Shown in pieces: positions 2,104-19,446 of a DNA stretch of 37,722 nt. The DNA is from Saprospiraceae bacterium. Lineage in GTDB: Bacteria; Bacteroidota; Bacteroidia; Chitinophagales; Saprospiraceae. Position numbers and translations under genes: made by a program. The DNA lies in the NCBI GenBank assembly GCA_020846655.1, contig JADLDL010000219.1, forward strand, positions 1 through 37,722, read 5' to 3'. How positions within the stretch are numbered: the first letter of the stretch is position 1; the number at the start of each line of letters is the position of its first letter. The notes under the pieces are model-generated. The model worked only from the letters and a program-made list of their open reading frames with translations. It ran no database searches and had not been told where the DNA came from.

Positions 2104-3840
2104 CTATTGCCTGCCGCTGCCATATCGATAATCCACCGGAATGCCTGCGGCCAACAGACGCCCGTTGTGCATTGAAAAAGCACTTCCGGCCGGCACCAGC
2201 ACCAGCAAGCGGGCGGTGTCGCCGGGGATGTCAACCTGGGTTTGGCCGCTCGCGTTGCGCCGGATGATCTGCCGGCTGACGGCGTCGTACAGGTCCACCG
2301 GATTGGGACCCAGATGTACTTGCACGGTTTTGGATTCCAGGTACGGGTTGAAGAGCAGATACGTTGGGTGGGCTTTTTCGCGCTGGAACATATCCGTTGC
2401 CCGGCAATCCACTTGGAGGATTTGCGGCACATTCGTGGCTTGAATGAGGCCCCCGAAAATACCGACGTGTCCGCTGCCGTATACCGAAAACATCGTTTCC
2501 GGCGGCATGCCCGGCGCCCAAAGGGGGCCGTCGCCTTGCGCAAAGGGCGTAATGCCCTTGTGTTGCTCATAAATGGACGATTTGATCAGGCCCTCGTAGG
2601 CAATCACCTTTTGGGTGATCGCTTTCCGGTCGGGCAGGGCTTGCAGCGAATCCGGGATCTCATCGGGGTAAAACAGCCGGGCTGTGTTGGCGGCGTTGAG
2701 CATCCATTTACCTACGGCGCGGGCATAGCGCTGGTCGTAGCGGAGCATGGCGCTGAGCGGCCAGGCCAGGTCGAAGGTGTTCATGGCAAACCCGTAGCCA
2801 CCGTTGTGGACGGTGCTGCCCGACATGCCGCTGACGTCGTAGCCGCCCCAGTTGTCCACGATCACGCCCCAGCCCTCGCGGCCTACGGCATCGCCGTCGA
2901 AGGTCCAGTTCATAAATTTTTGCACATCGTATTGCGCACCGGTTTCGGCGTTCAAGCGGGCGGCCATGTACGGCGCAAAGGCCATCAGAATCTCATAGGA
3001 CCGGTTTTCTTTCTGGCTGGCCAGCACATCCAGGGCATGGCGGGCCGCGCGCAGGTATTTTTCGTCGCCAAATTTCTGATACGCCCCGTATAAAATGAAC
3101 GCATATCCGGCGGCCACATCTTCCTGGGCGGGGATGTGGTTTTTGCCGGGCGTCATGGTTTTAAAATCAAAAAACGAATAACTATAGCCGTTGGCCATCA
3201 CCGAATCCGAGCGGTAAAACTGATCGGCAATGGTGCGCATGATTTCGGGATAGCCCTCTTCGCTTGGATAATAATTGCCGACGGCATAAAACAGGACGTT
3301 GTTGTACACCTCGTACCAAAAATCGTTGCCATAGCCACCGCCGATATGAGCGCCTTTGTTGGTAAAATTCATGACCACATTCCAGCCGTTGTCTTTGCTG
3401 AAATAATTGCGCAGCATGCGCACGTAGTTCCGGCCGTCTTGTTTGCTTTTGTCGATACCCACCAGCGTAGCGCCCAGCACCGAGCCCAAAGCCCCCAATG
3501 CCTCGTGGTTTTCGCCATTGTTTACGGCAGATCCTTCGCGTACATCGCCGATTGCTGTATAGATCCCAAACGTGGGCTCTTTAAAATTCCGGCCGGCCCG
3601 GTCTTCCCAAATCAAGGGCAGCAGTGGCCCTTTTTGTTTGAAATCGTATACATACCGGTCAAAACCCAGTGCCGTTTGTTTCCAATCTTTCAGGACATAG
3701 GGCTTCGGGTGGCGCGGCATGGCCTCGATCCGGGGGACGGCCATTTGCTGCACAGCCTGGGCCGAAGGCTGAAACGGAGGAAGGGTTTTACAGGACAAGA
3801 AACCCGTGAGCAGGAACAATACAGCGATGTATCGGAGCAT
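2104..3840 (-). CDS. PUL lipoprotein of unrecognised family, candidate alpha/alpha-barrel glycan-active enzyme
   Basis: This is a protein of about 578 residues with a lipoprotein signal (MLRYIAVLFLLTGFLSC), so it is probably anchored in the outer membrane. I do not recognise a named family. The whole mature part is homologous to the N-terminal ~560 residues of the protein at 10514-13624. Shared blocks include PYVLKDWKQTALGFDRYVYD, SYE...APYMAARLNAETG, WGGYDVSGMSG and LRYDQRYARAVGKWMLN. Repeated amphipathic helices such as AAGYAFILYGAYQKFGDEKY suggest an alpha/alpha-toroid like many glycoside hydrolases and polysaccharide lyases; that is inference. The final ~80 residues look like a small beta domain. 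It is last in a row with GH130 and MFS (48-bp gap to MFS), which supports a role in the same glycan pathway. An in-frame TTG lies four codons upstream at 3852; the ATG at 3840 was chosen for its A-rich leader. Confidence 0.75.
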   Translation of the reverse strand: MLRYIAVLFLLTGFLSCKTLPPFQPSAQAVQQMAVPRIEAMPRHPKPYVLKDWKQTALGFDRYVYDFKQKGPLLPLIWEDRAGRNFKEPTFGIYTAIGDVREGSAVNNGENHEALGALGSVLGATLVGIDKSKQDGRNYVRMLRNYFSKDNGWNVVMNFTNKGAHIGGGYGNDFWYEVYNNVLFYAVGNYYPSEEGYPEIMRTIADQFYRSDSVMANGYSYSFFDFKTMTPGKNHIPAQEDVAAGYAFILYGAYQKFGDEKYLRAARHALDVLASQKENRSYEILMAFAPYMAARLNAETGAQYDVQKFMNWTFDGDAVGREGWGVIVDNWGGYDVSGMSGSTVHNGGYGFAMNTFDLAWPLSAMLRYDQRYARAVGKWMLNAANTARLFYPDEIPDSLQALPDRKAITQKVIAYEGLIKSSIYEQHKGITPFAQGDGPLWAPGMPPETMFSVYGSGHVGIFGGLIQATNVPQILQVDCRATDMFQREKAHPTYLLFNPYLESKTVQVHLGPNPVDLYDAVSRQIIRRNASGQTQVDIPGDTARLLVLVPAGSAFSMHNGRLLAAGIPVDYRYGSGRQ

Positions 3841-3888
3841 TTTTTTATTCAATTTAAAGCCCTTTCAAGCGGATAAGGGCGGACATTT

Positions 3889-5160
3889 TTAAATCGTGGT
3901 TTGTTTTTCAACAGAATTCTCCGCCCAGGCTTTGTCTTTCAAAATGGATTTGGCCATAAACAGCGACATAAAATGCACCACGGCGATGACGAGCAGCGCA
4001 TAGCGCAGCGCAACGTAATCGCTGACATAGCGCGCCAGCAGGATAAACAACCCACAGCCAAAGAGCCGGCCGACGTATAAACCCAGTTCGTGGTTGAAAA
4101 TATAACTGAACTCGTTGCGGTTTTCCTTTTCCGCTACAAAATCAATGACTTTTAGTTGGATCGGGAAATAGGCGATGTCCAGCAGCGGCCGGGCGAAAAT
4201 GAGGCAGAGCACAAACAAAATCACCCCGGTAGCCGAGTACAGTCCGGCGTTGAACACGGCGCCCAGCACAAACAACGACAAGCCAAACGTAAAAATCAGC
4301 AGGCGGTGCGCCGGCAGACTGGTGCGGCCGAGCACATACAACAAGATCGCCGACACGAGCGCCGCAGCCGACTGGATGAAGCCCAGTTCGCCTTCCTCGC
4401 CCACCAGGTGCATGATGAGCATCACGGGAGCCGTCACGATATACCCCTGGGCTACGCCTTTCAATGCGGCCAGCCGGAGCATTTTATTCCACAGGCCGTG
4501 GAACTTGAAATACAAAAAGGGCGATTTTTTAGGATTCTGAAATTGCCCCTGGTGCACGAGCACCGAAGCCAGGAAGGTGAGTAGAAATACACAAGCGGTG
4601 AGGATGTAGTATGCCATGTTCACATTACCGGCAAACCAGCCGTTTTTCTGGGTGGCGGCAATAAACGCACCGGCAGCCAGCGGCACCAAAATGCCGTTGA
4701 TGGTGTAAAAAAAGGTCTCGACGCCGTAGTAATAGTTCCGGTTGCTGTCTTTGGTGGTGTTCAGCGCCAGAAAATCGCGGTTGGCCCAAAAGAACCCATA
4801 CGACAAACCCATGATGAGACCGGCAAAAAACACCCCGGCCGTATCGAGTTGGTCCAGCATCATCATCGCCGACATCGAGACGCCACTCAGCAACATGCCC
4901 AGGGAATAGACTTTCGAAATCGGAATGCGGTTGAGCAAATAGCCGTTGATCAGAAAGGTCGTGGGGATGCCGGTGTACATGGCCAGTTGGAACACCACCA
5001 CCAGGCTGATGTCCGAGGAGTTTCGCATGATGTAGGCGCCGATAAACAACTCGATAATGGGCATCACCAGGCCGTAGATCAGGTTGGTGAGCAACAACAT
5101 CCGCATGCCTAACTGCTGCGACTGGAAAAAATGCACTTCTTGCGTCAGTTTCTTAAACAT
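3889..5160 (-). CDS. MFS transporter, probable inner-membrane sugar importer
   Basis: This 423-residue protein has about 12 hydrophobic helices arranged as two halves, matching the major facilitator superfamily. Examples are LLLTNLIYGLVMPIIELFIG near the start, GVFFAGLIMGLSYGFFWANR as helix 4 and GVILFVLCLIFARPLLDIAY in the second half. Its ATG overlaps the stop codon region of the GH130 gene by 8 bp, so the two are very likely translated together. MFS genes of this kind commonly accompany GH130 genes in Bacteroidota PULs and are thought to carry oligosaccharides from periplasm to cytoplasm, where GH130 acts. The substrate cannot be read from the sequence; a beta-mannoside is inferred from the partner. 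The next gene downstream is the PUL lipoprotein. Confidence 0.85.
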   Translation of the reverse strand: MFKKLTQEVHFFQSQQLGMRMLLLTNLIYGLVMPIIELFIGAYIMRNSSDISLVVVFQLAMYTGIPTTFLINGYLLNRIPISKVYSLGMLLSGVSMSAMMMLDQLDTAGVFFAGLIMGLSYGFFWANRDFLALNTTKDSNRNYYYGVETFFYTINGILVPLAAGAFIAATQKNGWFAGNVNMAYYILTACVFLLTFLASVLVHQGQFQNPKKSPFLYFKFHGLWNKMLRLAALKGVAQGYIVTAPVMLIMHLVGEEGELGFIQSAAALVSAILLYVLGRTSLPAHRLLIFTFGLSLFVLGAVFNAGLYSATGVILFVLCLIFARPLLDIAYFPIQLKVIDFVAEKENRNEFSYIFNHELGLYVGRLFGCGLFILLARYVSDYVALRYALLVIAVVHFMSLFMAKSILKDKAWAENSVEKQTTI

Positions 5161-6214
5161 AATTAGAACTCACTTTCAGGCCAGATAATATGCTTTCAAT
5201 CGACAGGGTTGCGCCGCAAATCACTTCGTCCGAGGCGCCATAGTACATCGTCACTTCGTCTCCCTTGACCAAATGGCCATTGGTAAACACGACGTTGCCA
5301 AAAAAGCCGACTTTTTCGTAGTCTGCCGCCGGCTCAAACAGGGGCTCCCGGGATCGAGCCAGTACTTTGGTGGGATCTTCCAGGTCTAACAAGACGGCGC
5401 CCAGGCAATACCGGTTGTCAAAATTGGCGCCGTGGTAAATTTCCAACCATCCCGCCGCAGTTTTGATAGGCGCTGCACCGGCGCCCACGCGCGCGCAGTC
5501 CCACATGCCCGGCCGGGTCTGCAAAATGCAATGGTGCCCGCCCCAGTGTACCAGGTCGTGCGATGAGGCGATCCAAATGAAATTGCCGCCCAGGTCAAGG
5601 CCGGAGGGCCGGTGCAGGCAGAAATAGCGACCTCCTATTTTTTCTTCAAACAAGGAGCAATCTTTGTTGTGGGGCGGGAGGATCATGCCTTCGCGCTGGA
5701 AAAAATTCCAGTTGCGGGTGCGCATCAGCCCTACGCCGACGCCATTTTCAGACACCTGGGTATACGTCAGGTGGTACACGCCGTCGATCAGACTCACCCG
5801 GCAATCTTCAATGCCAAATGTTTCCAAGGCGCCCTGGCCGAATATTTTAGTGGGCCGCCCTCCTTCTGGCTCATGAAAATGTATTCCATCGTCGCTGCAC
5901 ACCAGGCGCAAATGCGAAATGGTGGTCAGGTACGTGGTGTTTTTGTAGTGAATCAGGCGCGCGTCGGAGAGGTTCAGGTCCGGATCGTTTTTGTCAAATT
6001 CCAGGACTTTCAGGCTGCCGTCTTCCTGCATGACGGGAAAAGAAATCAAGCCCTCTTTTTGCACCGGCCGTTCGGCCACCCGGAGCAGCAGCCAGGTTTT
6101 GTTTTCAAAGGAAAAAACACCCGGATTGAGCACACATTCCACCACCAAACCCGGATGGCTGGGCCGAATATCCCGGGTGGTTAAAATAGGATTCTGTTCA
6201 AATCTGTTTGCCAT
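5153..6214 (-). CDS. GH130 family beta-mannoside phosphorylase or hydrolase
   Basis: This 353-residue protein without signal peptide is the size of a typical single-domain five-bladed beta-propeller GH130 enzyme. Family motifs visible are NPGVFSFENKTWLLLRVAER (from about residue 30), GIEDCRV with the expected catalytic Asp near D137, NKDCSLFEEKI (about 183-193), LHRPSG, RVGAGAAPI...EIYHGA (about 242-263) and MYYGASDEVICGA near the end. GH130 enzymes phosphorolyse, or in some subgroups hydrolyse, beta-1,2- or beta-1,4-mannosidic links in the cytoplasm. After YTQ the sequence reads NGVGVGL, where I would expect an arginine in many phosphorylases; if alignment confirms this, a hydrolase is possible. 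The gene overlaps the MFS gene by 8 bp. A hairpin/T-run terminator lies between it and the LamG gene upstream, so it may have its own promoter in 6215-6300. Confidence 0.88.
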   Translation of the reverse strand: MANRFEQNPILTTRDIRPSHPGLVVECVLNPGVFSFENKTWLLLRVAERPVQKEGLISFPVMQEDGSLKVLEFDKNDPDLNLSDARLIHYKNTTYLTTISHLRLVCSDDGIHFHEPEGGRPTKIFGQGALETFGIEDCRVSLIDGVYHLTYTQVSENGVGVGLMRTRNWNFFQREGMILPPHNKDCSLFEEKIGGRYFCLHRPSGLDLGGNFIWIASSHDLVHWGGHHCILQTRPGMWDCARVGAGAAPIKTAAGWLEIYHGANFDNRYCLGAVLLDLEDPTKVLARSREPLFEPAADYEKVGFFGNVVFTNGHLVKGDEVTMYYGASDEVICGATLSIESILSGLKVSSNYV

Positions 6215-6314
6215 AATGGTACGGGTTTGGGCGAATCAGAAGGCCTTTTTGCTCCGGACAAAGCCCTGCGCGTCCGCGCCGTTTCCGGACGCAGCGTGTT
6301 GCAAGTCTATCTTG

Positions 6315-6367
6315 AAAAAAAAGCAAAATCTTCCCCCGATTGGCCCCATACTGGGCCCAACCGGGGG
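6315..6367 (-). terminator. Rho-independent terminator after the LamG gene
   Basis: On the minus strand, just downstream of the LamG gene's stop codon, a GC-rich stem is formed by CCCCCGGTTGGGCCC (6353-6367) and GGGGCCAATCGGGGG (6333-6347). It contains small imperfections and a 5-nt loop. It is followed after about 10 nt by eight T residues (6315-6322). This separates the susCD-LamG transcript from GH130-MFS-lipoprotein, or reduces read-through. Confidence 0.65.
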
Positions 6368-6391
6368 AGATCGTTCTGGTTCCTGCCAATC

Positions 6392-9300
6392 TTACTGCTT
6401 GTCGAATTTCACGGAACCGATATTTTTTCCACCCAAAACGAAGTTCAGGAAGTACGTGCCCGTCGGGTACTGCGAAACCGGAACGGCAAACTGCCCGTCG
6501 GGGATTTGGTTTTTGTCAAAACGCAAATCGCCGACCTGGCGCCCTTCCACATCAAATACCCGGACATACAAGGCCTGATTGCCTTCGAAACGGTGCTTGA
6601 TCCACAGGCGATCGGTTGCCGGATTGGGATACACGGCTTCCAGCATGCGGAACAAGTCTGCGTTCAGGTCTTCTGTGCCGGTGGTGCCGGTGCTGTAGAG
6701 TTTGGCAATTTCAGCCGCCGTCAGCGCTTTGTTGTAAATTTTCACTTCGTCCAGCCCGCCGATAAAGAACTGGCCACCCTCTACCGGGTTGTTGCCCATG
6801 CCCAGGGGCAGCCCTGTGCTGTTGAGTTTGGTCGTCACGGGTTTGATATTGGCTTGTTCGCCATTGACATACACAATATCGTTGGCGCCATCGTGTACCA
6901 TCGTAACGTGCCACCAGAAGCCTTTGGTCATTTCATTTCCGTCGCCACTGTCCATGTCCGAAACAATGATTGGTCCCAGCAGGTTGTTGCCGTTTGTGGT
7001 CCAAACAATTTTCAAGTGTTGTGGCAAAGAAATTTTCCAACGCTCGCTCCAGTGCCCAAAGTCGAGCACATAGGCTTCTGCATCGTCAAAATTCTGGTCG
7101 TCTACCCGGATCCAGAAACTCACGGTGGTGAAGTCCGAAATCAGTTGAACGGCATTCGGCGCCAGGATAGAATCGCCCTGGCCGTCAAATTTGATGTTTT
7201 GCCCGCCGCCATTGGGGTGCGTAGCCGGTTCAAATACCGGATTTCCTCCAATCACGCCGTGGTTGGCATACGGGGTAGCATCGTTGGCATTGCCTTCAAA
7301 AGGGTAATGCGCCACCAGGCCCGGTTCGCCGGTATCGATTTCTTTGTCGGTCGAAACAGTCAGTTCAGCAATCGCCGAATTGTTGCCGGCTTTGTCAAAG
7401 GCATAGACTTCAAAGGTGTACGGCGTTTCCGGGTCGAGTCCTGTCACCAAAACCGAAGTATTGGTGACGGTATCAAACAACACGCCGTCCACCAAAATCA
7501 CATACCCTCTGACCCCGCGGTCGTCGGTGGAGGCTTGCCAGGACAACAACACCGAGTTGGCGCCCGTGGCAGCCATCAGGTTGCCGGGCACGGAGGGTGG
7601 TGTCACGTCGGGCGTGGCTTCTTCCAGCGTGGTGACGTCGAGCGTCGTAGGCAGCGACTCGTTGCCGGCAGCATCCACAGCACTCACGCCAAACGTAAAC
7701 AAGGTTTGTGCGGTGAGCCCTGGCAGGTAGGCGCTCGTATTGCCGGTGCTCAGGATTTTGGCGCCGTTCTGGTACAAGTTGTAGGCGCTGACGCCCACGT
7801 TGTCGGTCGATGCCCACCAGGACAGGCCCACATTGTTGAATTCCACCGTAGCAGCCAGATTAAGCGGCGCCGTGGGGGCTTCTGCATCCGTCACAGCCGG
7901 CGGTGTGGCTTGCGCCGCATACAGGGCGGCGATTTCGGCGTCGCTCAGTGCTTTTTTATAAATCTGCACCTCGTCGAGCGAACAGTTGAAACAGTTGCCC
8001 TGGTCAATCGGGTTGTAGCCCATGCCCAGCGGTTTGGCGCTGCTGTTGAGGGCGCCGGTCACGGCCTTTTCGGCTTTGGCTACGCCATTGATAAAGATTT
8101 TGTCCTTGGCGCCATCGTGCACCAGGGCCACGTGTGTCCAGGCGCCTACGGGCAGGGCATTGCCGTCGCCGGCATCCATATCCGAAATACCGCTGGTGTT
8201 GTTGGTGGTCCACACCACTTTGCCGTGTGCCGGCAAGGAAATTTTCCAGCGTTCCTGCCAGCCGCCGTTCGACAGCAGGAAGGCTTCGCCGCTGGCGGGC
8301 AAGGCTTTCACATTGACCCAGAAACAAACGGTGGTGAAATCGGAATTCAACTGCGGCGAGTTGGCAGCCAGGATTTCATCGCTCACACCATTGAACGCGT
8401 AGGCTTGGTTGGCCTTGGCAAAACGGTCGTTGCCCAATTGGGCGCCCGATGCCTGCGCATGGTTGTGAAACGGGGTTTCGTCGTTGGCGTCGCCGTCGAA
8501 GGTGTAATTGGCCACCAGATCGTCCGGGATGTTGGGCGCAGCATTTTGCGCAGCGAACAAAGCCGCTACTTCCGGATCGCTGAGGGCGCGGTTGTACAGT
8601 TGAATATCGTCGAGGCTGCCTTTGAAATAATTGCCGGCGTCGATGGGGTTGTTGCCGATGCCGAGGGGCTGCTTGGTGCTGTTGAGTTTGCCCACCACGT
8701 CTTTGCTGTTGGCCAGCACGCCGTTGATGAAAATTTTGTCTTTCACCCCATCGTGCACCATCACCACGTGCCGCCATTGGCCGACAGGAAGTTCATTGCC
8801 GCCGCCGCTGTCCATGTCGGAAATGCCGGTGGCGTAGTTGGTCGTAAACACGGGTTTGCCGTGTCCGGGCAGTGAAATTTTCCAGCGTTCCTGCCAGCCG
8901 CCGTTCGACAGCAGGTAGGCCTCGCCACTCACGGGCAGTTCGTCGGGTTTCACCCAAAACGAAATAGTGGTGTAGTCCGAGTTGTACTGCACCGAATTGG
9001 CGGCCAGGAGCGAGTCGGCGCCTGAAAAATGATAGGCATTGGACGCGTAGTTGAACCGATCTATAGTCGGCTGGGCGCCACCTACGGCAGCATGGTTGCC
9101 GAACTGGGTGGCATCGTCGCCGTTGCCGGCAAATGAATAGGCTGCTACCAGATCGGTTGCTGTGCCCGGGAAGGTATTCTGCGCGACATACAAACTGCCC
9201 ACTGCCGCATCATCCAGGGCAAAGTTGAACAGTTGAACATCGTCCAGCACACCGTCGAACCAGTTGCCGCCATCTACGGCGTTGTAGCCGATGCCCAGGG

Positions 9301-10501
9301 GTTTGGCGGTGCTGTTCATCGTACCGGCCACGGCTTTGCTGCTGGCCAGGGCGCCGTCGATGAAAATTTTGTCGTTGGTGCCGTCGTGTACCGCCACGAT
9401 GTGCGACCAAACGCCCGGCTTCAACTCATGGCCGCCGCCGGCGTCCATATCGGAGATGCCACTGCTGTTGTTGGTAGTCCAAACCACTTTGCCATGGCTG
9501 GGCAGCGACATTTTGAACCGCTCCTGCCAGCCGCCAAACGACAGCAGGAAGGCCTCGCCGCTGACCGGCAAGGTATTGGGTTTTACCCAAAAACTAACAG
9601 TGGTGTAGGGTGAGTTCAGTTGGGCGGAGTTGCTGGCCGTCACTTCCGAGGAGATTCCGTTGAACCGGAATGCGTTGTTGCCATAGCCAAAACGGTCGGT
9701 GGTGGCTTGCACGTCCGTCGCTTGCGCGTGGTTGTGGAAAACGGTGGCGTCGAGGGCATTGTTCCGGAAACCATAGTCGGCTACCAGTGTTTGCGAAACG
9801 GAAGGCGCCGTGTTTTGAGCGGCATAAAAGGCGGCTATTTCTGTGGCATTCAGGGCGTTGTCAAAAATAACAACTTCGTCCAGGGCGCCTTTGAAATAAT
9901 TGCCTTTGTCGATCGGGTTGTAGCCGATGCCCAGGGGCCGAGCAGTGCTGCTCATGGTGCCCGACACGTTTTTTTCGGCCACCTGAACACCGTTGATGTA
10001 GATCAGGTCCTTCGTGCCATTGTGCACAAACGCCAGGTGTTTCCAGGCGCCCGGGCTGAGGGCGTTGGCGTCGCCGGCATCCATATCCGAGATGCCAGAA
10101 CTGTTGTTGGTGGTCCAAACCAGTTTGCCGTGCGGTGGCAGCGAGATTTTCCAGCGTTCCTGCCAGCCGCCAAACGAGAGCAGGTAGGCTTCGCCCTGGA
10201 TGGGCAATTCCGTCACCTTGATCCAAAAACAGACCGTGGTGTAGTCGGAATTCAGGGCCGCGGCATTGGGCGCCTGAATAAAACTTTGGGCGCCGTCAAA
10301 CAGGAAGGCGGCATTGGCCCAGCCAAAGCGGTCTTGCGTAGGGGTGGCGCCATGCACGGTGGCGTGGTTGTTGGAGGCGGAAAAATCCTGGGCATTGCCG
10401 GTAAAGGAGTAATTGGCTACCGGGATTTGTGCCCATGCCCCTGCAGCGGCCAGGAGCCAAGCCAGGAGGAACAGAGGGATAGTGTGTAAACGCCGTTTCA
10501 T
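6392..10501 (-). CDS. T9SS-secreted protein with five LamG domains and two fibronectin type III domains
   Basis: This 1369-residue exported protein probably binds glycan at the cell surface. It has a signal peptide (about 1-25, ending GAWAQ). Four consecutive LamG/concanavalin-like domains of 212 residues each follow (about 27-238, 239-450, 451-662, 663-874). Next come two FN3 domains (about 870-965 and 965-1055), a fifth LamG (about 1060-1275) and a type A T9SS sorting domain starting VYPNPATDRLWI and ending SVKFDKQ. Each LamG repeats WQERWKISLP, VWTTNN and SDMDAG or close variants. I see no catalytic domain, so a lectin-like or SusE/F-like capture role is inferred. An in-frame TTG two codons upstream was rejected in favour of the ATG before KRRLH. 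It is 12 bp downstream of the 1036-residue gene and surely co-transcribed with it. Confidence 0.85.
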   Translation of the reverse strand: MKRRLHTIPLFLLAWLLAAAGAWAQIPVANYSFTGNAQDFSASNNHATVHGATPTQDRFGWANAAFLFDGAQSFIQAPNAAALNSDYTTVCFWIKVTELPIQGEAYLLSFGGWQERWKISLPPHGKLVWTTNNSSGISDMDAGDANALSPGAWKHLAFVHNGTKDLIYINGVQVAEKNVSGTMSSTARPLGIGYNPIDKGNYFKGALDEVVIFDNALNATEIAAFYAAQNTAPSVSQTLVADYGFRNNALDATVFHNHAQATDVQATTDRFGYGNNAFRFNGISSEVTASNSAQLNSPYTTVSFWVKPNTLPVSGEAFLLSFGGWQERFKMSLPSHGKVVWTTNNSSGISDMDAGGGHELKPGVWSHIVAVHDGTNDKIFIDGALASSKAVAGTMNSTAKPLGIGYNAVDGGNWFDGVLDDVQLFNFALDDAAVGSLYVAQNTFPGTATDLVAAYSFAGNGDDATQFGNHAAVGGAQPTIDRFNYASNAYHFSGADSLLAANSVQYNSDYTTISFWVKPDELPVSGEAYLLSNGGWQERWKISLPGHGKPVFTTNYATGISDMDSGGGNELPVGQWRHVVMVHDGVKDKIFINGVLANSKDVVGKLNSTKQPLGIGNNPIDAGNYFKGSLDDIQLYNRALSDPEVAALFAAQNAAPNIPDDLVANYTFDGDANDETPFHNHAQASGAQLGNDRFAKANQAYAFNGVSDEILAANSPQLNSDFTTVCFWVNVKALPASGEAFLLSNGGWQERWKISLPAHGKVVWTTNNTSGISDMDAGDGNALPVGAWTHVALVHDGAKDKIFINGVAKAEKAVTGALNSSAKPLGMGYNPIDQGNCFNCSLDEVQIYKKALSDAEIAALYAAQATPPAVTDAEAPTAPLNLAATVEFNNVGLSWWASTDNVGVSAYNLYQNGAKILSTGNTSAYLPGLTAQTLFTFGVSAVDAAGNESLPTTLDVTTLEEATPDVTPPSVPGNLMAATGANSVLLSWQASTDDRGVRGYVILVDGVLFDTVTNTSVLVTGLDPETPYTFEVYAFDKAGNNSAIAELTVSTDKEIDTGEPGLVAHYPFEGNANDATPYANHGVIGGNPVFEPATHPNGGGQNIKFDGQGDSILAPNAVQLISDFTTVSFWIRVDDQNFDDAEAYVLDFGHWSERWKISLPQHLKIVWTTNGNNLLGPIIVSDMDSGDGNEMTKGFWWHVTMVHDGANDIVYVNGEQANIKPVTTKLNSTGLPLGMGNNPVEGGQFFIGGLDEVKIYNKALTAAEIAKLYSTGTTGTEDLNADLFRMLEAVYPNPATDRLWIKHRFEGNQALYVRVFDVEGRQVGDLRFDKNQIPDGQFAVPVSQYPTGTYFLNFVLGGKNIGSVKFDKQ
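7890..10423 (-). repeat. Four tandem ~636-bp repeats encoding LamG domains
   Basis: The coding DNA for LamG domains 1 to 4 repeats with a period of 636 bp (212 codons). The segment beginning TTTTCCAGCGTTCCTGCCAG recurs near 8239 and 8877, with more than 35 identical bases following across both copies, and near 10147; a diverged version is near 9511. High DNA identity between copies 3 and 4 suggests recent duplication or gene conversion. Such repeats can also be mis-collapsed in assemblies. Confidence 0.8.
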
Positions 10502-10513
10502 ATTCAATTGAGT

Positions 10514-13500
10514 TTAAATTTTTTGAAAAAATGCCGTTTGGTACTGATAGGAAACGATATAAAAACCTGGTTTCCAATGTTTAATGTTTATGTCAAATAC
10601 AGCGCCCGGGCTGGCCGTCTCGCTGAACATGAGCCTGCCCAGCGGGTCTGAAACCGACAGGTTTGCCTCCGGGCCCCTGCCTTCCGGTACCTGAATGTGC
10701 AGGACCTCGGTGGCCGGATTGGGCCACATGCTGATGCGCATGTCAGGTTTCCCTGGAGCCTGTAGCCCCGTGGAGGAACTTTGGTACAAGTCGGCTACCG
10801 CATCCGGCGGCAAGGCCCGGTCAAAAATTTTCACCTCGTCGAGGGTGCCTTTGAAATTGTATTCGGTGTTGCCGGGCAACATTTGACCCATCAAAAAAGG
10901 CACAGCCGCCGGGCGAATTTTGCCGCTCAGGGGCCGGAAGGATTGCAGTTGCCCGTCCAGGTACAGGGCCATATGCGCGCCGTCGTAACTGACAGCGGTA
11001 TGGTAAATGCTGTCTTTGGACAACAACACTTCCGAATCGAGGTCGCCAACTGCCGTGAGGCTATTGAGCGTCCAGCGGAGTTTCCGTTCGGGGGTAATCG
11101 AAATTTTCCAGCGGTTTTGCCAACTTCCGTGCGAGAGCAAGAACACCTCTCGGTCGGGCAAGGCCGTCGCTTTGAACCAACAACTGACCGTAATGGCGTC
11201 CTGGAAATTGAGCAGCGGCGCATTCGGCACGCTGATGTTGTCGTTGACTCCATCCAGTTGGGCGGCACGCGCCGGCTGCCCGAAAAAATCTGTTCCGATG
11301 AGGGCGCCGCCGCTGGCCTGGCCGTGCAACTGGTTGCCACTCACATCGTTGGCGTTGCCGGTGAAGGGGTAGTGGGCGATCAGGGTAGCCGGGGTGTTGT
11401 CAAAAAGTTTCACCCAAACCGAAGTGCTCGCGCTGGCCGACAGGCCTTTGTCGTCGCTCACCAGGACTTGAATCTGGTAAATGCCCTGGCTAGCCGGAGC
11501 CGTCCAGGAGACCGTGTTGCCGCCGCCGCTGAAACTGCCGCCCGTGGCTGTCCACTGAAAACTCAGGGGGTCCAGGTTCGGATCGCCCGCCAGGCAATGC
11601 AGGTCGAGGCTTCCGCCGGGCGCTACCACGGCTGCACTTTTTTCCAGCGCGGCGATTTGTGGCGCTTTGTTGATTTCCGGAACAGCCTGAAGTACGAGCA
11701 TCGCCGTGTCACGGTTGCCCTCGGCGTCGGCTACGATCAAACTGATTTCGTAGTTGCCCGGTACGGCAGGCGCCTGCCAGATGGTGGTTGCGCCTGTGCC
11801 GCTGATGCTGCCGCCAGTGCTGCTCCAGATCCAGGTCAGGAGGGTGCCGGAGTCGGGGTCCTGTGCTTTTGCAAACAACGTGGTGTTTTGGCCAAATTCC
11901 ACCTGAGACTCGGCTGCGGCAAGGGCCTGAATGCGTGGGCCGTAGGTGTACGCTTGGGCACTTTGGTTGAAATCCACCACCACGCCGTTGATGAGCAGTT
12001 TGTTCCGGTCGTAGGATTGGATGCCCCCGGCCGGTGTGATGCTCACGAGCAAGGCCTGGTCGGCCGGGATTGTCAGGTTGACCGTTCCACTGCCATCGTT
12101 TACCAAAAAGGTTTCCGACACCGCATCATACACGTCGGCGGGTGCATTGCCCAGGTCCAGTTCCACGATTTTGGCCTGCGGATACGGGTTGTACAGCAGG
12201 TAGGTAGGGTAGGCCGCCTGCTGGAAAAAATCCGTTTTTAATACATTGATTTTTAAAATCTTATCTACGTTGGTCTTCTCCAGCAGGGCGCCCAGGTACC
12301 CAATGGAGGAGGTCCCGTACAAGGCCAAGTTGGTGGCGGCCCAACCGGCTTTCAGGGCGTCGCCGGTAGAGTAGGGCGATTGGTTTTGCCATTTTTCGCG
12401 CAAGGCCTCGTAGCCGATTACCCGATCGGGATCATTAGCGTTCGACCAGGCGCTGGCGTCCTGCAGGCTGCCGGGCAGAAAACCCGGGTAAAACAAGCGG
12501 GTGGCGTTGGCCAGGTTGAGCACCCATTTGCCGATGGCCCGGGCAAAACGTTTGTCGTAGCGCAACATCGGCACGAGCATGGCGGCCTGCTGGACACCGT
12601 TCATTTGGAAGGCATAGTCGTTGCCATTGTCGTTGGCTTCGCCGATGAGGCCGCTCACATCAAACCCGCCCCAAGAGCCCACAATGGCGCCCCAACCCCG
12701 CAACGGCCCCCTGTCGAAGGACCAGTTGACCATTTTTTCCACGTCGTAGCGGGTGCCCAGTTCGGCGTTCATACGCGCTGCGGTGTAGATGCCGTAGGGC
12801 AATTGGAGTTCGTAGGATGGGTTGGTGTCCCATTCGTTCAGAAACTCCAGGCTCCACTCGGCCCCTTGGAGGTAGGCGGGGTTGCCGCTGTGCCGGTAGG
12901 CGTTGTACAACACCCAGGCGTAGGCGCCCGCTGCTTCCGGCTCTTTGACGCCGTTGGCGTTGGGCTGCATGGTTTTGAAATTGAAGGCCCGATAGTTCAT
13001 GTTGGCTTTTTGCCAGGGGGTAGCGGAGCCGCCGAGTGCTTGTACCGAGGCTAAAAATCGGTCGGCGACCGCCAGAAATTGGAAATCGGCGGCACCGCCG
13101 GCGTCCGGATACAGGTCGTACAATTGGTAGAAATAGACATTGGGCATGAGGTCGTACCACCAATCGCCGCCGCTACCGCCGCTGCGGTTGTTCAGGTAGA
13201 TGCCTTCGCCGTTGTTGGCGTTGAAAAAATCCTGACTCATGAGCAGCCAGTTCTCGCCGAATTGGTCCGACTTGTCGGCCCCGGCCAGGGTAGCGCCCAC
13301 GAGGGAGGGCAACACGTTGATGGCTTCGTTGCCCTGTGGGGTATTGGTGCCCACGTAAGTATGCAAACCGAAACTTTTGTTTTGGGGATAGTTGAGGCCA
13401 CTGGGCTGGATATAGACCAGCGGCAGGTATTGACCGGTTTTTTGCAGGTCATACACAAAGGAATCGTAGCGCAGGGCGACCTGCCGCCAGTCACGCACGT

Positions 13501-13624
13501 TGTAGGGCGCCGGCTGATTGAGCATCAACTCCACCCGGGGGATATGGATCTGTGGTACCTGAGCGGCAAGAGAAAAGGCTGCCAATACCAGTACGACAGG
13601 TATTGTTTTTTGTAAAAAATGCAT
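10514..13624 (-). CDS. T9SS-secreted PUL protein: unrecognised N-terminal domain, two PKD-like domains, LamG, sorting domain
   Basis: This 1036-residue protein has a signal peptide (about 1-21, ending SLAAQ). Its N-terminal region (about 25-560) is homologous to the lipoprotein at 2104-3840. Two PKD/Ig-like domains follow (about 565-650 and 655-740), then a LamG (about 748-948) of the same subtype as in the next gene (SWQNRWKISI), and a type A T9SS sorting domain from MWPNPATEVLHIQV to FFQKI. Shared N-terminal blocks include YNVRDWRQVALRYDSFVYD, YTAARMNAELGTRYDVEKM, WGGFDVSGLIG and LRYDKRFARAIGKWVLN. The multi-domain build (large helical domain plus glycan-binding modules) is typical of secreted glycan-degrading enzymes, so an endo-acting glycosidase or lyase role is inferred; no known catalytic signature was recognised. 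It sits between susD and the LamG gene on the same strand. Confidence 0.8.
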   Translation of the reverse strand: MHFLQKTIPVVLVLAAFSLAAQVPQIHIPRVELMLNQPAPYNVRDWRQVALRYDSFVYDLQKTGQYLPLVYIQPSGLNYPQNKSFGLHTYVGTNTPQGNEAINVLPSLVGATLAGADKSDQFGENWLLMSQDFFNANNGEGIYLNNRSGGSGGDWWYDLMPNVYFYQLYDLYPDAGGAADFQFLAVADRFLASVQALGGSATPWQKANMNYRAFNFKTMQPNANGVKEPEAAGAYAWVLYNAYRHSGNPAYLQGAEWSLEFLNEWDTNPSYELQLPYGIYTAARMNAELGTRYDVEKMVNWSFDRGPLRGWGAIVGSWGGFDVSGLIGEANDNGNDYAFQMNGVQQAAMLVPMLRYDKRFARAIGKWVLNLANATRLFYPGFLPGSLQDASAWSNANDPDRVIGYEALREKWQNQSPYSTGDALKAGWAATNLALYGTSSIGYLGALLEKTNVDKILKINVLKTDFFQQAAYPTYLLYNPYPQAKIVELDLGNAPADVYDAVSETFLVNDGSGTVNLTIPADQALLVSITPAGGIQSYDRNKLLINGVVVDFNQSAQAYTYGPRIQALAAAESQVEFGQNTTLFAKAQDPDSGTLLTWIWSSTGGSISGTGATTIWQAPAVPGNYEISLIVADAEGNRDTAMLVLQAVPEINKAPQIAALEKSAAVVAPGGSLDLHCLAGDPNLDPLSFQWTATGGSFSGGGNTVSWTAPASQGIYQIQVLVSDDKGLSASASTSVWVKLFDNTPATLIAHYPFTGNANDVSGNQLHGQASGGALIGTDFFGQPARAAQLDGVNDNISVPNAPLLNFQDAITVSCWFKATALPDREVFLLSHGSWQNRWKISITPERKLRWTLNSLTAVGDLDSEVLLSKDSIYHTAVSYDGAHMALYLDGQLQSFRPLSGKIRPAAVPFLMGQMLPGNTEYNFKGTLDEVKIFDRALPPDAVADLYQSSSTGLQAPGKPDMRISMWPNPATEVLHIQVPEGRGPEANLSVSDPLGRLMFSETASPGAVFDINIKHWKPGFYIVSYQYQTAFFQKI

Positions 13625-13710: not shown

Positions 13711-15144
13711 TTAGTACCCCGGGTTTTGCAACAAGGCCGGGTTCAGGTCCAATTCCTGTTGGGGCAGGGGAAATACTTCGTGTTTGCCGACTTTGAAATC
13801 GGGCAATTTTTGCGCAGCCAGGCCCCAACGCACCAGGTCGAAATAGCGGTGCATCTCAAAGCCCAACTCTACCTGCCGCTCGTGCCGGACGGCGTCGATC
13901 ATGGCTTGCTGGTCGGCAACCACTACGGGCGGGAGTGCTGTGGCCGGGTCAGTGGCCTGTGCGCGGGCACGGGCGCGCACCAGTTCGAGTGGCGCTTGTG
14001 CTTCGGCCACGCGGTTCAGCATGGCCAGGGCTTCGGCTTCCCAGAGCAACACCTCGGCATAGCGAATGGCGGTGTAATTGATGTCGCCGTCGGCTTTCTG
14101 GGTGGCACTGCTGTCGGTTTGCAGGTACTTGCGCGGACTGAATTTGGTGGAGGAAAAAGAGTTTTTGTAAATCAAGCCAAAGTAATTCTCGTTGTTGCTG
14201 GCTACCGTAAACTGCCGGCGCGGGTCGCCGGGCTCAAAGGTGCTTACATATTCCGGGGTCACTTCGGCAAAGCCATAGCCGCCGCCAAATTTCTTGGATG
14301 CCCACCACTGGTTCAGCGAATTGCCCACACCGAGTTCGAGGTTGGCGTGCTGGATTTCCCAGACGGATTCGCTGTTGTTTTGCGTCAGTTCGCGAAAATT
14401 ATCCTCGTAGTCGGCCATCAGGGCGTACATATTTAGGGCTTTTACCTGGCTCACATAGCCCAGCACCTGTTCCCAGGTTTGTTGGTACAAACTGGTTTTG
14501 GCGGCCAGGGCCAGAGCGGCGCCCCGGGTAGCGCGGCCCACATCGGCTGCCGGGTGCTGCAACGGCAACAGGGCCGCAGCGGTTTCGCAGTCGGCGATGA
14601 CCTGCCGGAATACCTCGCTGCGGGGCGTTTTGGGCACTTTCAGTTCGTCGGGTGGCGTCAATTTTACCAAAAGCGGCACGTCGCCGAAGGTTTGCGCCAG
14701 CAAATAATAATACCAGGCCCGCAGGAAATAGGCTTCGCCCAGCAGCCGGCTTTTCAAGGTTTCATCCATGACAATGGCCGGCACTTTGTCGAGCACCGTG
14801 TTGCATTGGGTGATGCCTTTGTAGTTCAGCACCCAAAAATCATTGAACTCCTGGGTGCGGGGCGTGAAGGTGAAAAAATCAAGTTCGGTGAGCCCGGGCC
14901 TCGACCCGTCGCCGCCCACCACGGCCTCGTCGGAGCACAATTCGGCGAAGCCCCAATAAAAATTGTTGTTGCTGTTGCTGATGGGCAAGGCGCCGTACGC
15001 GGCATTTACGGCCTGCACGGCATCGCCTGCCGTTTGAAAAAAGGAACCCGCGTCGAGGGTACCGAGGGGCTCTTTGTTGAGAATGCCTTCGCAGGATACC
15101 AGCGCCAGGGCGCTGCACAAAAGAAAGTATGTTGCTTTTTTCAT
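13711..15144 (-). CDS. susD: SusD/RagB family outer-membrane glycan-binding lipoprotein
   Basis: This lipoprotein of about 477 residues has the signal MKKATYFLLCSALALVSCEG with Cys near residue 18. The SusD fold is supported by the N-terminal NKEPLGTLDAGSFFQTAGDA segment, the LGEAYFLRAWYYYLLAQTFGDVPL helix block (TPR-like), and the C-terminal motif AIRYAEVLLWEAEAL followed by RHERQVELGFEMHRYFDLVRWG and the NPGY ending, all characteristic of RagB/SusD. It forms the lid of the SusC channel and binds glycan at the cell surface. The start chosen is the ATG at 15144; a TTG at 15159 overlapping susC is in frame but would add residues before a normal lipoprotein signal. It lies 11 bp downstream of susC, in the same operon. 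Confidence 0.95.
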   Translation of the reverse strand: MKKATYFLLCSALALVSCEGILNKEPLGTLDAGSFFQTAGDAVQAVNAAYGALPISNSNNNFYWGFAELCSDEAVVGGDGSRPGLTELDFFTFTPRTQEFNDFWVLNYKGITQCNTVLDKVPAIVMDETLKSRLLGEAYFLRAWYYYLLAQTFGDVPLLVKLTPPDELKVPKTPRSEVFRQVIADCETAAALLPLQHPAADVGRATRGAALALAAKTSLYQQTWEQVLGYVSQVKALNMYALMADYEDNFRELTQNNSESVWEIQHANLELGVGNSLNQWWASKKFGGGYGFAEVTPEYVSTFEPGDPRRQFTVASNNENYFGLIYKNSFSSTKFSPRKYLQTDSSATQKADGDINYTAIRYAEVLLWEAEALAMLNRVAEAQAPLELVRARARAQATDPATALPPVVVADQQAMIDAVRHERQVELGFEMHRYFDLVRWGLAAQKLPDFKVGKHEVFPLPQQELDLNPALLQNPGY

Positions 15145-15155
15145 AGTTGTATACT

Positions 15156-18100
15156 TCAAAAGTCCAGGTTCGCGCCTAAAATGAAGGTGCGGGGCGCTGG
15201 CACGGTGCCCCAGTCGATGCCGACGGCGAGGTCGGAAGACACGTTGATACCACGGGTGTCGTTGGTGTTGGCTTGTATTTCGGGGTCGAGGCCCGGGTAG
15301 CGGGTGAAGGTGAAGGCGTTTTGCGCGGTGACGTAAACGCGCAGGTTCCGAATGCTCTCCGACCGGATGAGGCTTTTAAAAGTATAGCCGAGGGTAATGT
15401 TCCGGATGCGGAAATAGGAGCCGTCTTCGAGCCAGCGCGTGGAGATGCGCCGGTTGCCGTTGCGGTCGTCCAGGCTGACTTTCGGAATGTCGGTGCTGGT
15501 GTTGCCGGGCGTCCAGCGGTTGAGGATATCGCGGTACGAATTGAAGCCGCGCGACTGGGTTTCATAGGCAAAATTGCCGTAGAGAAAATAGACATCGTTG
15601 CCCTGCACCCCTTGTCCCAAAATGGACAAATCGAGGTTTTTCCAATTCATTCCTAGGTTGATGCCGTAGATAAAATCGGGGAACGGACTGCCGAAATGGT
15701 CCCGGTCCTTGTCGTTGATGACGTTGTCGCCGTTGAGGTCGGCAAAACGAACATCGCCGGGACGGGTATCGTCCGTTTGGTAGGGCGCGGCGTCAATTTC
15801 AGCCTGACTTTGGAAAATGCCCGCCATTTTGTACAGAAAAAATGACCCGACGGGGTAGCCCGGCTCGGTTTTGGTAATGGGCCCGTCGGACAAGCCAAAC
15901 CCGCCGAGGATGGGCTCGCTGCCGGCTACAGACAGTACCTTGTTGCGCACCGAAGAAATATTGCCGCCGATGCTGTAACTGAATTCGCCGATCCGGTTTT
16001 TGAAAATAATACCGAGTTCGAGGCCTTTGTTTTCCACTTCGCCGGCATTGACGAAAGGCGGTGAGGTGGCGCCGCCGGCTTGCGGTACCGGCACTCGCAC
16101 GAGGATGTCGTTGGTGACTTTGCGGTAATAATCGGCGATAAACGACAGGCGGTCTTCCCAGATGCTGAAATCCAGCCCAATGTCGAGTTGGGTGCTGGTC
16201 TCCCATTTGATGTTGCTGTTGCCGGTTTCCAGTACTTGGGCGCCGGTCACGATTTTGTCGCCGAACACATACACGCGCTGGCCGGTGCCCACCAGCGAAC
16301 TGTAGGGGTAAATGCCGATTTCCTGGTTGCCGAGCCGGCCCCAACTGGCGCGCAGTTTCAGCATGGAAACGAATTGGAGCGGCTCAAAAAACGCTTCGTT
16401 TGAAATGTTCCAGGCGGCCGACACGGAAGGAAATACGCCGAAACGGTTGTTGGCGCCAAAGCGGGAGGAGCCGTCGCGCCGGATGGAAGCACCCAGCACG
16501 TAGCGGTTGTCGAAGGAATAACTGGCTTGCGCAAAATAGGAGAGCAAAGCCCACTCGGTGACGATACCCGAGGCGCCGATGTTTTTGATATCGATCGGAA
16601 CGCTGTTGTTCAGGTAGCGAAACAAGGGGTCCGTGCGGGTAAAATTGTTGGCTGAAGCGCCCAGGTAGTTGGTCTGGTTTTGAATGGCCTCCATGCCCAA
16701 CAGGGCCGAAACGCGCGAACGCCCAAACGTGCGCTGCAAGTCCAGCGTGTTGTTCCACACCAGGTTTTGGTCGAACACCCGTCCTTCGTTGAGCGAAGAA
16801 GGGTCGTAAATGGCCTGCGAGAGCCGTTGTTTGAACAGTTTTTCATTTTCAAACAAAAAATCGCCGCCCAGGGTGGTGCGCAGTTTCAAGCCTTGCAGCA
16901 GGGTAAGTTCGGCAAAGAGGCTGCCAAACATGCGGTAGCGTTGGAGGGTCCAATCGGTGGCGTCGATAAAGGCGAGAGGGTTGGCGTTCCCGTCGCCGTA
17001 CAGCAAAGGGTCGCCCAATTCGGAGGATACGTTGTAGTACGAGCCGTCGGGTTTGCGCACCGGGAACACCGGCGCGGCGATGAGGGCATAGCGGATGCCG
17101 CTGAGTTCGTTGCCGGCGCCAAAACCGTCGCCCGAACTGTTGATGACCTTCCGGTCGGTGAAGGAAAAGGAAATGTTGTTGCCTACTTTGAAGCGTTTGT
17201 TGCCGAGTTCGCCGTTGAAGCGCAGGCCGTATTTTTTAAAACCCTGTCCCCGGAAGGTGCCTTGCTGGTCGAGGTACTCGGCCTGGATAAAATAGCTGCT
17301 GGTTTCGCTGCCGCCGGTGGCGCTCAGGCTGTAGCGTTGGAACGGCGCTGTGCGGAAGACCTGGTTGAGCCAGTCGACATCCGGCAGCGAGTCCAGTAAG
17401 GCGAGGTCGAAGGTATCGAGTTGCCGGGCCGGATCGCGCAGCGTGTTGGCGTTGTTGATAGCTTCGTTGCGGATGTTCAGGTATTCGGCGGCGTTGAGCA
17501 GTTCGGGCAGGCGGTAGGCTTCCGAAACGCCGGCGGCAGTGTTGAAACTGAATCGAGGCGTGCCGGCTTTGCCTCTTTTGGTCGTGATGACGATGACGCC
17601 GTTGGCGGCGCGGGCGCCGTAAATGGCTGCAGCGGCGCCGTCTTTGAGCACCTCGATGGATTCTATGTCGTTGGTTGAGAACATGTTGATGTTCCCGGTG
17701 GTGGGCACGCCGTCGATGATAAACAAGGGGTTGTTGTTGCCCAGGGTGCCGGCCCCCCGGATGCGCACGGCAATGTCGTCGCCCGGTGCGCCGGTGGTTT
17801 GGGTGACCTGCACCCCCGGGGCTTGCCCCTGCAAGGCCTGGTCGATGCCGGAAACGGCGAGTTTTTCCAAATCTTTGCCCTTGATCGAGGCAATAGCCGA
17901 GGTGACGTCGGCGCGAATTTCTTTTTTGTAACCGGTGACCACCACGCTTTGCAGCACCTGGCTGCCAGCGCCCAGCACGACATCCAGTACGGTGCGGTCT
18001 AGCAGGGGAATTTCCTGTTTGTCGAAACCGACATAACTAAACAGCAGTGTGGCGCCGGCACTCACCTGGAGGCGATAGGCGCCGGTGGCGTCGGTAGCCG

Positions 18101-18308
18101 TGCCGTTGGACGTGCCTTTTTCCTGTACGCTGACGCCGATCAGGGGCTGCTGGTCTTCGGCAGAGCGCACCGTGCCGGTTACGGCAATTTGCTGCGCCAG
18201 GCCAGGGCTATTGGCCAAGGTCCAAAAAAAGCACAGCGCCAACACCCGCACAGACACCCATTGAACAGAAAGAACACGGCCCATTGGCCCCTTTGCTACT
18301 TGTTTCAT
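15156..18308 (-). CDS. susC: SusC/RagA family TonB-linked outer-membrane transporter
   Basis: This 1050-residue protein has a signal peptide (about 1-39, ending PGLAQQ). A carboxypeptidase-regulatory-like beta domain follows (about 42-125, VTGTVRSAEDQQPLIGVSVQ), then the SusC signature VVVTGYKKEIRADVTSAIAS, and a plug domain with IRGAGTLGNNNPLFIIDGVP and NDIESIEVLKDGAAAAIYGA. A 22-strand-type barrel fills the rest, ending RTFILGANLDF. It imports oligosaccharides through the outer membrane using TonB energy, in complex with SusD encoded directly downstream. No N-terminal STN or anti-sigma-interacting domain precedes the carboxypeptidase-like domain, which agrees with control by the divergent AraC protein rather than an ECF sigma/anti-sigma pair. 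Confidence 0.95.
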   Translation of the reverse strand: MKQVAKGPMGRVLSVQWVSVRVLALCFFWTLANSPGLAQQIAVTGTVRSAEDQQPLIGVSVQEKGTSNGTATDATGAYRLQVSAGATLLFSYVGFDKQEIPLLDRTVLDVVLGAGSQVLQSVVVTGYKKEIRADVTSAIASIKGKDLEKLAVSGIDQALQGQAPGVQVTQTTGAPGDDIAVRIRGAGTLGNNNPLFIIDGVPTTGNINMFSTNDIESIEVLKDGAAAAIYGARAANGVIVITTKRGKAGTPRFSFNTAAGVSEAYRLPELLNAAEYLNIRNEAINNANTLRDPARQLDTFDLALLDSLPDVDWLNQVFRTAPFQRYSLSATGGSETSSYFIQAEYLDQQGTFRGQGFKKYGLRFNGELGNKRFKVGNNISFSFTDRKVINSSGDGFGAGNELSGIRYALIAAPVFPVRKPDGSYYNVSSELGDPLLYGDGNANPLAFIDATDWTLQRYRMFGSLFAELTLLQGLKLRTTLGGDFLFENEKLFKQRLSQAIYDPSSLNEGRVFDQNLVWNNTLDLQRTFGRSRVSALLGMEAIQNQTNYLGASANNFTRTDPLFRYLNNSVPIDIKNIGASGIVTEWALLSYFAQASYSFDNRYVLGASIRRDGSSRFGANNRFGVFPSVSAAWNISNEAFFEPLQFVSMLKLRASWGRLGNQEIGIYPYSSLVGTGQRVYVFGDKIVTGAQVLETGNSNIKWETSTQLDIGLDFSIWEDRLSFIADYYRKVTNDILVRVPVPQAGGATSPPFVNAGEVENKGLELGIIFKNRIGEFSYSIGGNISSVRNKVLSVAGSEPILGGFGLSDGPITKTEPGYPVGSFFLYKMAGIFQSQAEIDAAPYQTDDTRPGDVRFADLNGDNVINDKDRDHFGSPFPDFIYGINLGMNWKNLDLSILGQGVQGNDVYFLYGNFAYETQSRGFNSYRDILNRWTPGNTSTDIPKVSLDDRNGNRRISTRWLEDGSYFRIRNITLGYTFKSLIRSESIRNLRVYVTAQNAFTFTRYPGLDPEIQANTNDTRGINVSSDLAVGIDWGTVPAPRTFILGANLDF

Positions 18309-18382
18309 GCTTACCCAATTTGAAGACCACCGAATTCCGGAACAAATGTTCGTATCAGCAAAAGTGGACCTTTATCAAAAGG

Positions 18383-18393
18383 GTATCTGATAC
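18383..18393. promoter_or_regulatory. GTATC-T-GATAC palindrome in the susC/araC intergenic region
   Basis: A perfect 5-bp inverted repeat around one base lies in the 160-bp divergent region, and a related GTATCAG occurs at 18352-18358. TATC half-sites spaced over about 40 bp could be operator sites for the adjacent AraC-type protein. This rests on pattern and position only. Confidence 0.3.
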
Positions 18394-18411
18394 TTTAATG
18401 CAAATACATGG

Positions 18412-18468: not shown

Positions 18469-19446
18469 ATGAATATCTACCGGGAGATTACCCCTCTGAA
18501 AGAACCGGATGTTTTTGTGATCCTGGATTCCTGCAACAACGGGTTTGATTACCCCATTCACAACCACCCGGAATTTGAACTGAACCTGGTGGCCGGCATT
18601 TCAGGCACCCGGATCGTAGGCGATTCCACAGAACGCTACAGCGAAATGGATTTGGTGTTGCTGGGGCCATACCTGTACCACAAATGGGATGGCGACGAAG
18701 AACACCAGCGGCAAGGCAGACCCTACCGCGTCATCACCATACAATTCGGCATGGACCTGTTCAGCGCCCATCTATTTCAAAAAGAGCGGTTTTATAAAAT
18801 TCGGAAACTGCTCGAAGATTCGGCGCGGGGCATCAAATTTCACGGCAAAACCTTCGAAGAAGCCATGAAAATGATGATCAGCCTTACCCAAGACAACGGC
18901 TTTGCCAGCATCATTGAATTTATGCAACTCCTGGATTTGCTCTCGCAATCCACCGAAACGACCTACCTCGTGAGTGAGGGATTTATGCCGCAGGCCCTCA
19001 AGTCCGATAGCCGCCGCATCCAACTCGTGTACAACTACATCTTAAAAAACTTTGCGGATCATTCGATCAAAATTGGCGATGTGGCCTCCTGGGTGAACAT
19101 GAGCACCTCAGCCTTCAGCCATTTTTTTCAGAAATACAACAACAAGAGTTTTACCCAATTTTTGCTGGACGTGCGGATCGGCCATGCTTGCAAACGCCTG
19201 TTGAGCACCGACGAAACCGTCAACCAGATCGGGTACAGCGCCGGCTTCAACAACATCGCCAATTTCAACCGGCTGTTCAAAAAGTACCGCTCCTGCACGC
19301 CCACAGAATACCGCCGGCGCTACAAGGAGAAAAATGAGTTCGACTGGGCCAACCAAATTACGCCCTGGCAGTTTTTGCCGCAGCAATCCGGCAACGGCGA
19401 AGTGTTGCGGCCGGCGCAGTATGCCACGCGCTTGATTCACCTGTGA
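18469..19446 (+). CDS. AraC family transcriptional regulator of the PUL
   Basis: This 325-residue protein has an N-terminal cupin-like sensing domain (HNHPEFELNL with H31 and H33, then a glycine-rich strand pattern to about 110), a helical linker, and a C-terminal pair of helix-turn-helix motifs (about 190-290). The latter include IKIGDVASWVNMSTSAFSHF and IGYSAGFNNIANFNRLFKKY, ending with the typical SCTPTEYRRRY. AraC proteins with this layout usually bind a sugar through the cupin and activate nearby operons. It is divergent from susC with a 160-bp shared regulatory region, so it most likely controls the PUL. After the HTH there is a tail of about 35 residues with no recognised domain. The gene converges with the permease gene ending 12 bp away. 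Confidence 0.93.
   Translation: MNIYREITPLKEPDVFVILDSCNNGFDYPIHNHPEFELNLVAGISGTRIVGDSTERYSEMDLVLLGPYLYHKWDGDEEHQRQGRPYRVITIQFGMDLFSAHLFQKERFYKIRKLLEDSARGIKFHGKTFEEAMKMMISLTQDNGFASIIEFMQLLDLLSQSTETTYLVSEGFMPQALKSDSRRIQLVYNYILKNFADHSIKIGDVASWVNMSTSAFSHFFQKYNNKSFTQFLLDVRIGHACKRLLSTDETVNQIGYSAGFNNIANFNRLFKKYRSCTPTEYRRRYKEKNEFDWANQITPWQFLPQQSGNGEVLRPAQYATRLIHL

Follow-up and report, generated by a model that had tools for sequence, protein, structure and literature searches.

The locus described here raises the question of what two homologous secreted proteins, A and B, contribute to a gene cluster that also encodes a GH130 enzyme. The answer that we favor, at roughly even chances, is that A and B represent an uncharacterised family of secreted glycoside hydrolases (GHs) serving a locus for β-1,2-linked mannan or mannooligosaccharides, with B extracellular and A periplasmic. 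A bolder version, which we offer tentatively and with rather less assurance, is that they found a new GH family of endo-β-1,2-mannanases that would provide the missing chain-cutting step of a dedicated β-1,2-mannan pathway and whose members would occur across Saprospiraceae-like bacteria and in further classes of the phylum.

Organization of the locus

The window, i.e. the whole stretch of 37,722 nucleotides that was analysed, contains the following genes of the locus:

2104..3840, minus strand: protein A, a lipoprotein with no parts other than the barrel domain and a C-terminal β-sandwich (lipobox, BLASTP, model)
3889..5160, minus strand: MFS transporter, presumed inner-membrane importer (Pfam MFS_1, 49 bits)
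5153..6214, minus strand: GH130 mannoside phosphorylase or synthase, no evident signal peptide (Pfam Glyco_hydro_130, 153.6 bits)
6392..10507, minus strand: protein with five LamG and two fn3 domains and a T9SS tail; glycan binding is presumed (Pfam)
10514..13624, minus strand: protein B, in which the barrel domain (about residues 21–560) is followed by a pair of PKD/Big domains, one LamG domain and a T9SS sorting tail (Pfam, BLASTP, model)
13711..15159, minus strand: SusD-like protein (Pfam SusD_RagB, 125.1 bits)
15156..18308, minus strand: SusC-like TonB-dependent receptor (named from its translation)
18469..19446, plus strand: AraC-type regulator (Pfam HTH_18, 74.5 bits)

Judged by its predicted genes, the locus is a Sus-type PUL, with a susC/susD pair, a regulator, a transporter and a glycan enzyme; the PUL setting described in the earlier note on this DNA is thus borne out, by Pfam for SusD, AraC, MFS and GH130 and by translation for SusC. 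The minus-strand genes follow each other in the order susC, susD, B, five-LamG protein, GH130, MFS and A, and the AraC gene is divergent. Neighboring genes overlap slightly or are separated by at most 177 bases, which makes a single transcript likely; a scan for promoters and terminators returned counts near the shuffled expectation.

Several other genes of the window deserve mention. A polysaccharide flippase gene (659–2089, plus) converges on A. Six MacB/FtsX-type permeases are encoded on the minus strand (19459–21825, 21854–24361, 29372–31843, 32083–34488, 34502–36856 and 36869–37717, the last being cut by the window end); these paralogues, an unusual run, resemble the ADOP duplicated-permease family below the cut-off. 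Among them lie genes for a response regulator with a LytTR domain (24415–26007, minus), whose N-terminal ~300 residues have no Pfam match, for a serine β-lactamase-fold protein (26357–27790, plus) scoring far below the cut-offs of all the resistance families shown, and, next to the latter, for a dicarboxylate/glutamate symporter (27855–29285, plus).

A and B share a barrel domain that has no name in Pfam or NCBIfam

A and the first ~550 residues of B are identical in 223 of 582 alignment columns (38%; BLASTP, 377 bits, E = 3e-123), far beyond chance, and the collinear sequence blocks from which the earlier note had deduced their homology are found in both. An acidic stretch before the AGYAF/GAYAW helix, where it had placed an acidic residue, is present as well, as QED in A and EPE in B, with the proviso that alignments differ on these three columns. 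A search of the same genome retrieved no copies of the family other than A and B.

Every Pfam and NCBIfam model scored below its cut-off on A and on the barrel region of B, and searches of PDB sequences with A or with a family profile yielded chance-level matches only, in line with the initial impression that no known family could be recognized. The sole recurrent Pfam signal in 36 members was the C5-epimerase C-terminus (15/36, best E 0.00095), and the NCBIfam matches, which concerned five models, were weak (E 0.0064 at best). The profile was built from 36 of 37 sequences, the A copy of locus L049 being omitted; the A fragments of L050–L052 and the B fragments were left out of the family alignments.

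With A as query, the family was detected in 19 genomes out of a sample of 395 from the phylum. The 36-row profile matched 24 of the 395 at E 0.01, the match in the five extra genomes spanning 33–62 positions of one helix region (E 7e-4 to 0.006). A scan of species genomes yielded 31 loci, nearly all assigned to Saprospiraceae, Chitinophagales, Haliscomenobacter, Aureispira or Bacteroidota, and one to Thermoanaerobaculia. In a tree of 55 sequences, obtained after removal of domains with a match shorter than 480 residues and of two duplicates, L001 and L002, one branch (support 100/99) separates 35 A rows from 20 B rows. The B rows include L014 (the L090 gene), which was classed as B by score though it lacks the LamG tail, and which sits on a very long branch near the A/B split.

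The barrel family is associated with GH130

All 19 genomes that contain the family also encode a GH130 enzyme, versus 149 of the 395 overall (hypergeometric probability 4e-9, or 1e-8 without the genome of the window, a statistic that ignores the relatedness of genomes). The association holds at the level of gene neighborhoods: GH130 is present in 21 of the 31 loci of the species-genome scan and in 16 of 18 neighborhoods from other genomes, with a weak match (44 bits) in L090. In eight of the ten GH130-less loci of the first set, the available sequence begins at most ~1.4 kb from A or at the MFS gene; in the other two, L022 and L027, A is present, the upstream genes are unrelated and GH130 is missing. 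The two exceptions of the second set are L085 and L095, the latter being a short contig. Altogether, the barrel family is real, conserved, without a name in Pfam or NCBIfam, and tied to GH130 and mannoside use. A new CAZy GH family requires at least one biochemically characterised member.

Two arrangements recur. In L079–L084, six A genes lie with MFS and GH130 genes, susC and susD being present too in five cases; there is no B in the 20 kb covered, and each of these genomes has a single family match. In eight loci from more distant genomes, belonging to other classes (L085, L088, L091–L096), B is accompanied by a GH2 gene resembling solved β-mannosidases (8/8), a GH94-like gene (7/8) and GH130 (6/8), the GH2 and GH94-like queries having been taken from L092.

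These neighborhoods contain other genes of interest. The large protein encoded by L092:13094–15583, with kin in L085, L091 and L093–L096, has weak GH94-type matches only, lies beside B and GH130, and may be a further enzyme of these loci that has no name; L092:3543–5888 encodes 781 residues with no Pfam match. In L042, a GFO/IDH/MocA oxidoreductase gene (8826–9983), perhaps an extra sugar step, is inserted between MFS and A, and same-sized frames occur in L043–L045. In L086, an extracellular solute-binding protein (17294–18580) takes the place of MFS and a permease-like gene follows further on, which suggests an ABC importer instead of the MFS carrier. Finally, frames of 2,066–2,140 residues in L033, L034, L044 and L045 had the appearance of a fusion between B and the five-LamG gene; since they run into masked sequence in L033 and L044, we dropped the fusion idea for all four loci. 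Masked sequence is likely also the cause of the 1,753-residue GH130 frames of L037 and L049.

The neighboring GH130 enzyme points to β-1,2-mannosides

The GH130 protein of the window is closest to Uhgb_MS (219 of 347 columns identical, 63%; 523 bits), followed by Lin0857 (301 bits), a 1,2-β-oligomannan phosphorylase (191 bits), a β-1,2-mannobiose phosphorylase (151 bits) and TM1225 (139 bits), for which no specificity is named. The first chains named as β-1,4-type come after these, namely UHGB_MP (95 bits) and a β-1,4-mannooligosaccharide phosphorylase (92 bits). We take Lin0857 to act on β-1,2 links and UHGB_MP on β-1,4 links. The title of one Uhgb_MS entry in the PDB names a complex with a 1,2-β-mannoside, and PMC8950772 presents this protein as a mixed-linkage mannoside synthase with β-1,2-mannobiose among its products. 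The neighboring GH130 therefore points to β-1,2-mannosides rather than to plant β-1,4-mannan, although, because Uhgb_MS is listed as a mixed-linkage synthase, the presence of such an enzyme may not prove β-1,2 breakdown.

The GH130 enzymes described in PMC4599007 and PMC4264767 as acting on β-1,2-mannosides are exo-acting or short-chain phosphorylases, and a lysine is said, in PMC4599007, to set β-1,2 specificity in GH130. These phosphorylases and mannosidases presumably share a substrate with A and B, which are themselves not GH130 members and which, in contrast to the exo mode described in PMC4599007, are proposed to be endo-acting. It is about an even call whether the barrel family acts on β-1,2-mannan; that it does so in endo mode is a supposition that we hold to be somewhat more doubtful.

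A and B could instead be secreted GHs that cut another mannose glycan, such as β-1,4- or mixed-linkage mannan, the side chains of a fungal mannan or an exopolysaccharide from bacteria, in which case GH130 would only finish the mannoside ends. The mixed products of Uhgb_MS fit this scenario, as do the GH2 β-mannosidase-like genes found beside B in the eight distant loci. The window locus, however, has no GH2 gene, and its GH130 resembles the β-1,2 enzymes far more than the β-1,4 ones; we regard another mannose glycan as a rather unlikely substrate. Of the two GH130 proteins of L092, one leans to the β-1,2 enzymes (118 versus 80 bits) and the other does not tell the two kinds apart (197 versus 159 bits). 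Given the GH130 comparisons and the GH2 neighbors, we favor a β-1,2-linked substrate for the window locus and are less sure of it elsewhere.

A and B probably act in different compartments

B is a T9SS cargo: it ends with a sorting tail that scores above the Pfam cut-off (Por_Secre_tail, 29.4 bits for a cut-off of 27), and the T9SS protein SprA is encoded in the same genome (2304 bits). It also carries PKD/Big_9 domains and a LamG domain (88.2 bits). Seven B proteins of other loci were scanned, and all of them have kept the LamG domain. Their sorting tail exceeds the cut-off in four cases (L086, L088, L096 and L050) and falls just below it in L092 and in L044, where it is cut by masking; L089 has an FlgD_ig match instead.

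A bears the lipobox FLSC, and a loose lipobox pattern is found in 26 of 29 full-length A proteins (the window and L022–L049). Acidic residues after the lipidated cysteine constitute a surface-export signal of lipoproteins. The first four positions after this cysteine contain no acidic residue in 25 of the 26 proteins, L048 having two. Furthermore, A has no lipobox cysteine in four of the six loci L079–L084, where an ordinary signal peptide was recognized by eye. The lack of an acidic signal, the existence of loci devoid of B and these plain signal peptides suggest that A is likely periplasmic and that B is an added extracellular step. Hence, the proposed lipid anchoring of A and T9SS secretion of B agree with the sequences, whereas the proposal that both act outside the cell may hold for B and probably fails for A.

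These data are consistent with the following pathway. B, exported by the T9SS, would cut the polymer outside the cell, helped by its own LamG domain and by the five-LamG protein; SusC and SusD would import the resulting fragments, which A would shorten in the periplasm; the MFS carrier would then move the oligosaccharides into the cytoplasm, where GH130, if it works in the degradative direction, would phosphorolyse them to mannose 1-phosphate. A search of open-access full texts, bioRxiv being outside its scope, found no publication titled as a β-1,2-mannanase, which is no proof of absence. If the proposal is right, it would complete a pathway with a chain-cutting partner, assign a role to proteins that neither Pfam nor NCBIfam names, and provide an enzyme tool for β-1,2-mannans, for example those that PMC4264767 reports from Candida and Leishmania.

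The barrel domain is predicted to be an α/α barrel with invariant acidic residues

The model of A (pLDDT 91.9, pTM 0.93) displays an α/α-type barrel followed by a β-sandwich. That of B is weaker (pLDDT 83.1, pTM 0.89, 42 residues <50), with the same order of elements. Read from secondary-structure order alone, the barrel would consist of six inner and six outer helices, an order that would fit the (α/α)6 fold of clan GH-S. We inspected the best 50 of 863 and the best 50 of 978 Foldseek matches, one list per model. For both models, the best matches were GH127/GH146 proteins (E about 1e-6 to 1e-4, TM 0.22–0.39); further matches included GH9, 2-epimerases, unsaturated glucuronyl hydrolases, GH76, a polysaccharide lyase and others, some lower-ranked ones having a higher target-side TM (MmpH, 0.56; BT_3782, 0.61). 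A fold search of BFVD was uninformative (one match <1e-3, TM 0.33–0.36). This spread and the low TM values place the domain among the α/α barrels but in none of the families listed, and the barrel type anticipated from the sequence is supported by both models.

GH127/GH146 β-L-arabinofuranosidases resemble A and B in combining an α/α barrel with a β domain. HMM–HMM comparison nevertheless rejects membership (hhalign probability 1.8%, E 0.027; TM <0.4); as a yardstick, the GH127 and GH76 profiles score 60% with each other. GH127/GH146 enzymes use a catalytic cysteine and zinc, and one PDB title among the matches of B says cysteine-directed. In the barrel family, by contrast, 54 columns are conserved in 54 or all 55 of the A and B sequences, and none of these columns holds a Cys or His that could correspond to the catalytic cysteine or the zinc ligands. 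The matches of B also comprise GH76 endo-α-1,6-mannanases, which are α/α-barrel mannan enzymes (6u4z, TM 0.43/0.48), and BT_3782 (4mu9, TM 0.43/0.61), presumably a GH76 member. Membership of GH76 is likewise rejected (hhalign 0.2%, E 0.29, with a GH76 alignment of three sequences; no Pfam GH76 match). An analogy of role, the use of a β-1,2-linked polymer, is offered by the β-1,2-glucanases of clan GH-S (GH144, GH162 and GH192–194), recently founded families of inverting (α/α)6 enzymes defined by Glu, Phe and Tyr (PMC12102758). They are absent from the best 50 Foldseek matches of either model.

Seven acidic residues (D38, E90, D107, E260, E393, D414 and D460) are invariant in the 55 A and B sequences, and three more (D150, E276 and D312) are kept in 54 (numbering of the A model; add 23 for the A gene); many Trp and Asn residues are invariant as well. 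In this model, E90, D150, the QED/EPE stretch at 216–218 and E260 each immediately precede a helix; we interpret these helices as successive members of the inner set, and α/α barrels of this kind have their active site at this end.

It is quite improbable that the barrel domain binds glycans without cutting them, as a surface or periplasmic binding protein. No activity is on record, and B does carry LamG and PKD modules; against a mere binding role stand the numerous acidic, Trp and Asn residues that never vary between A and B, as well as the B-less loci L079–L084, where GH130 is the sole glycan-cutting enzyme among the 13 query proteins (the other genes being mostly unannotated). The barrel family is likely to be an enzyme. 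Polysaccharide lyase or sugar epimerase activity is very improbable for it: enzymes of both kinds use α/α barrels and appear, as 2-epimerases and a lyase, among the best 50 matches per model, but the C5-epimerase match, recurrent in the family, covers ~31 residues in A and stays below the cut-off, secretion would suit an epimerase poorly, and none of the 30 neighbor proteins scanned with Pfam matches a uronate or lyase family, so that, of the glycosidase or lyase originally suggested, a hydrolase is the likelier.
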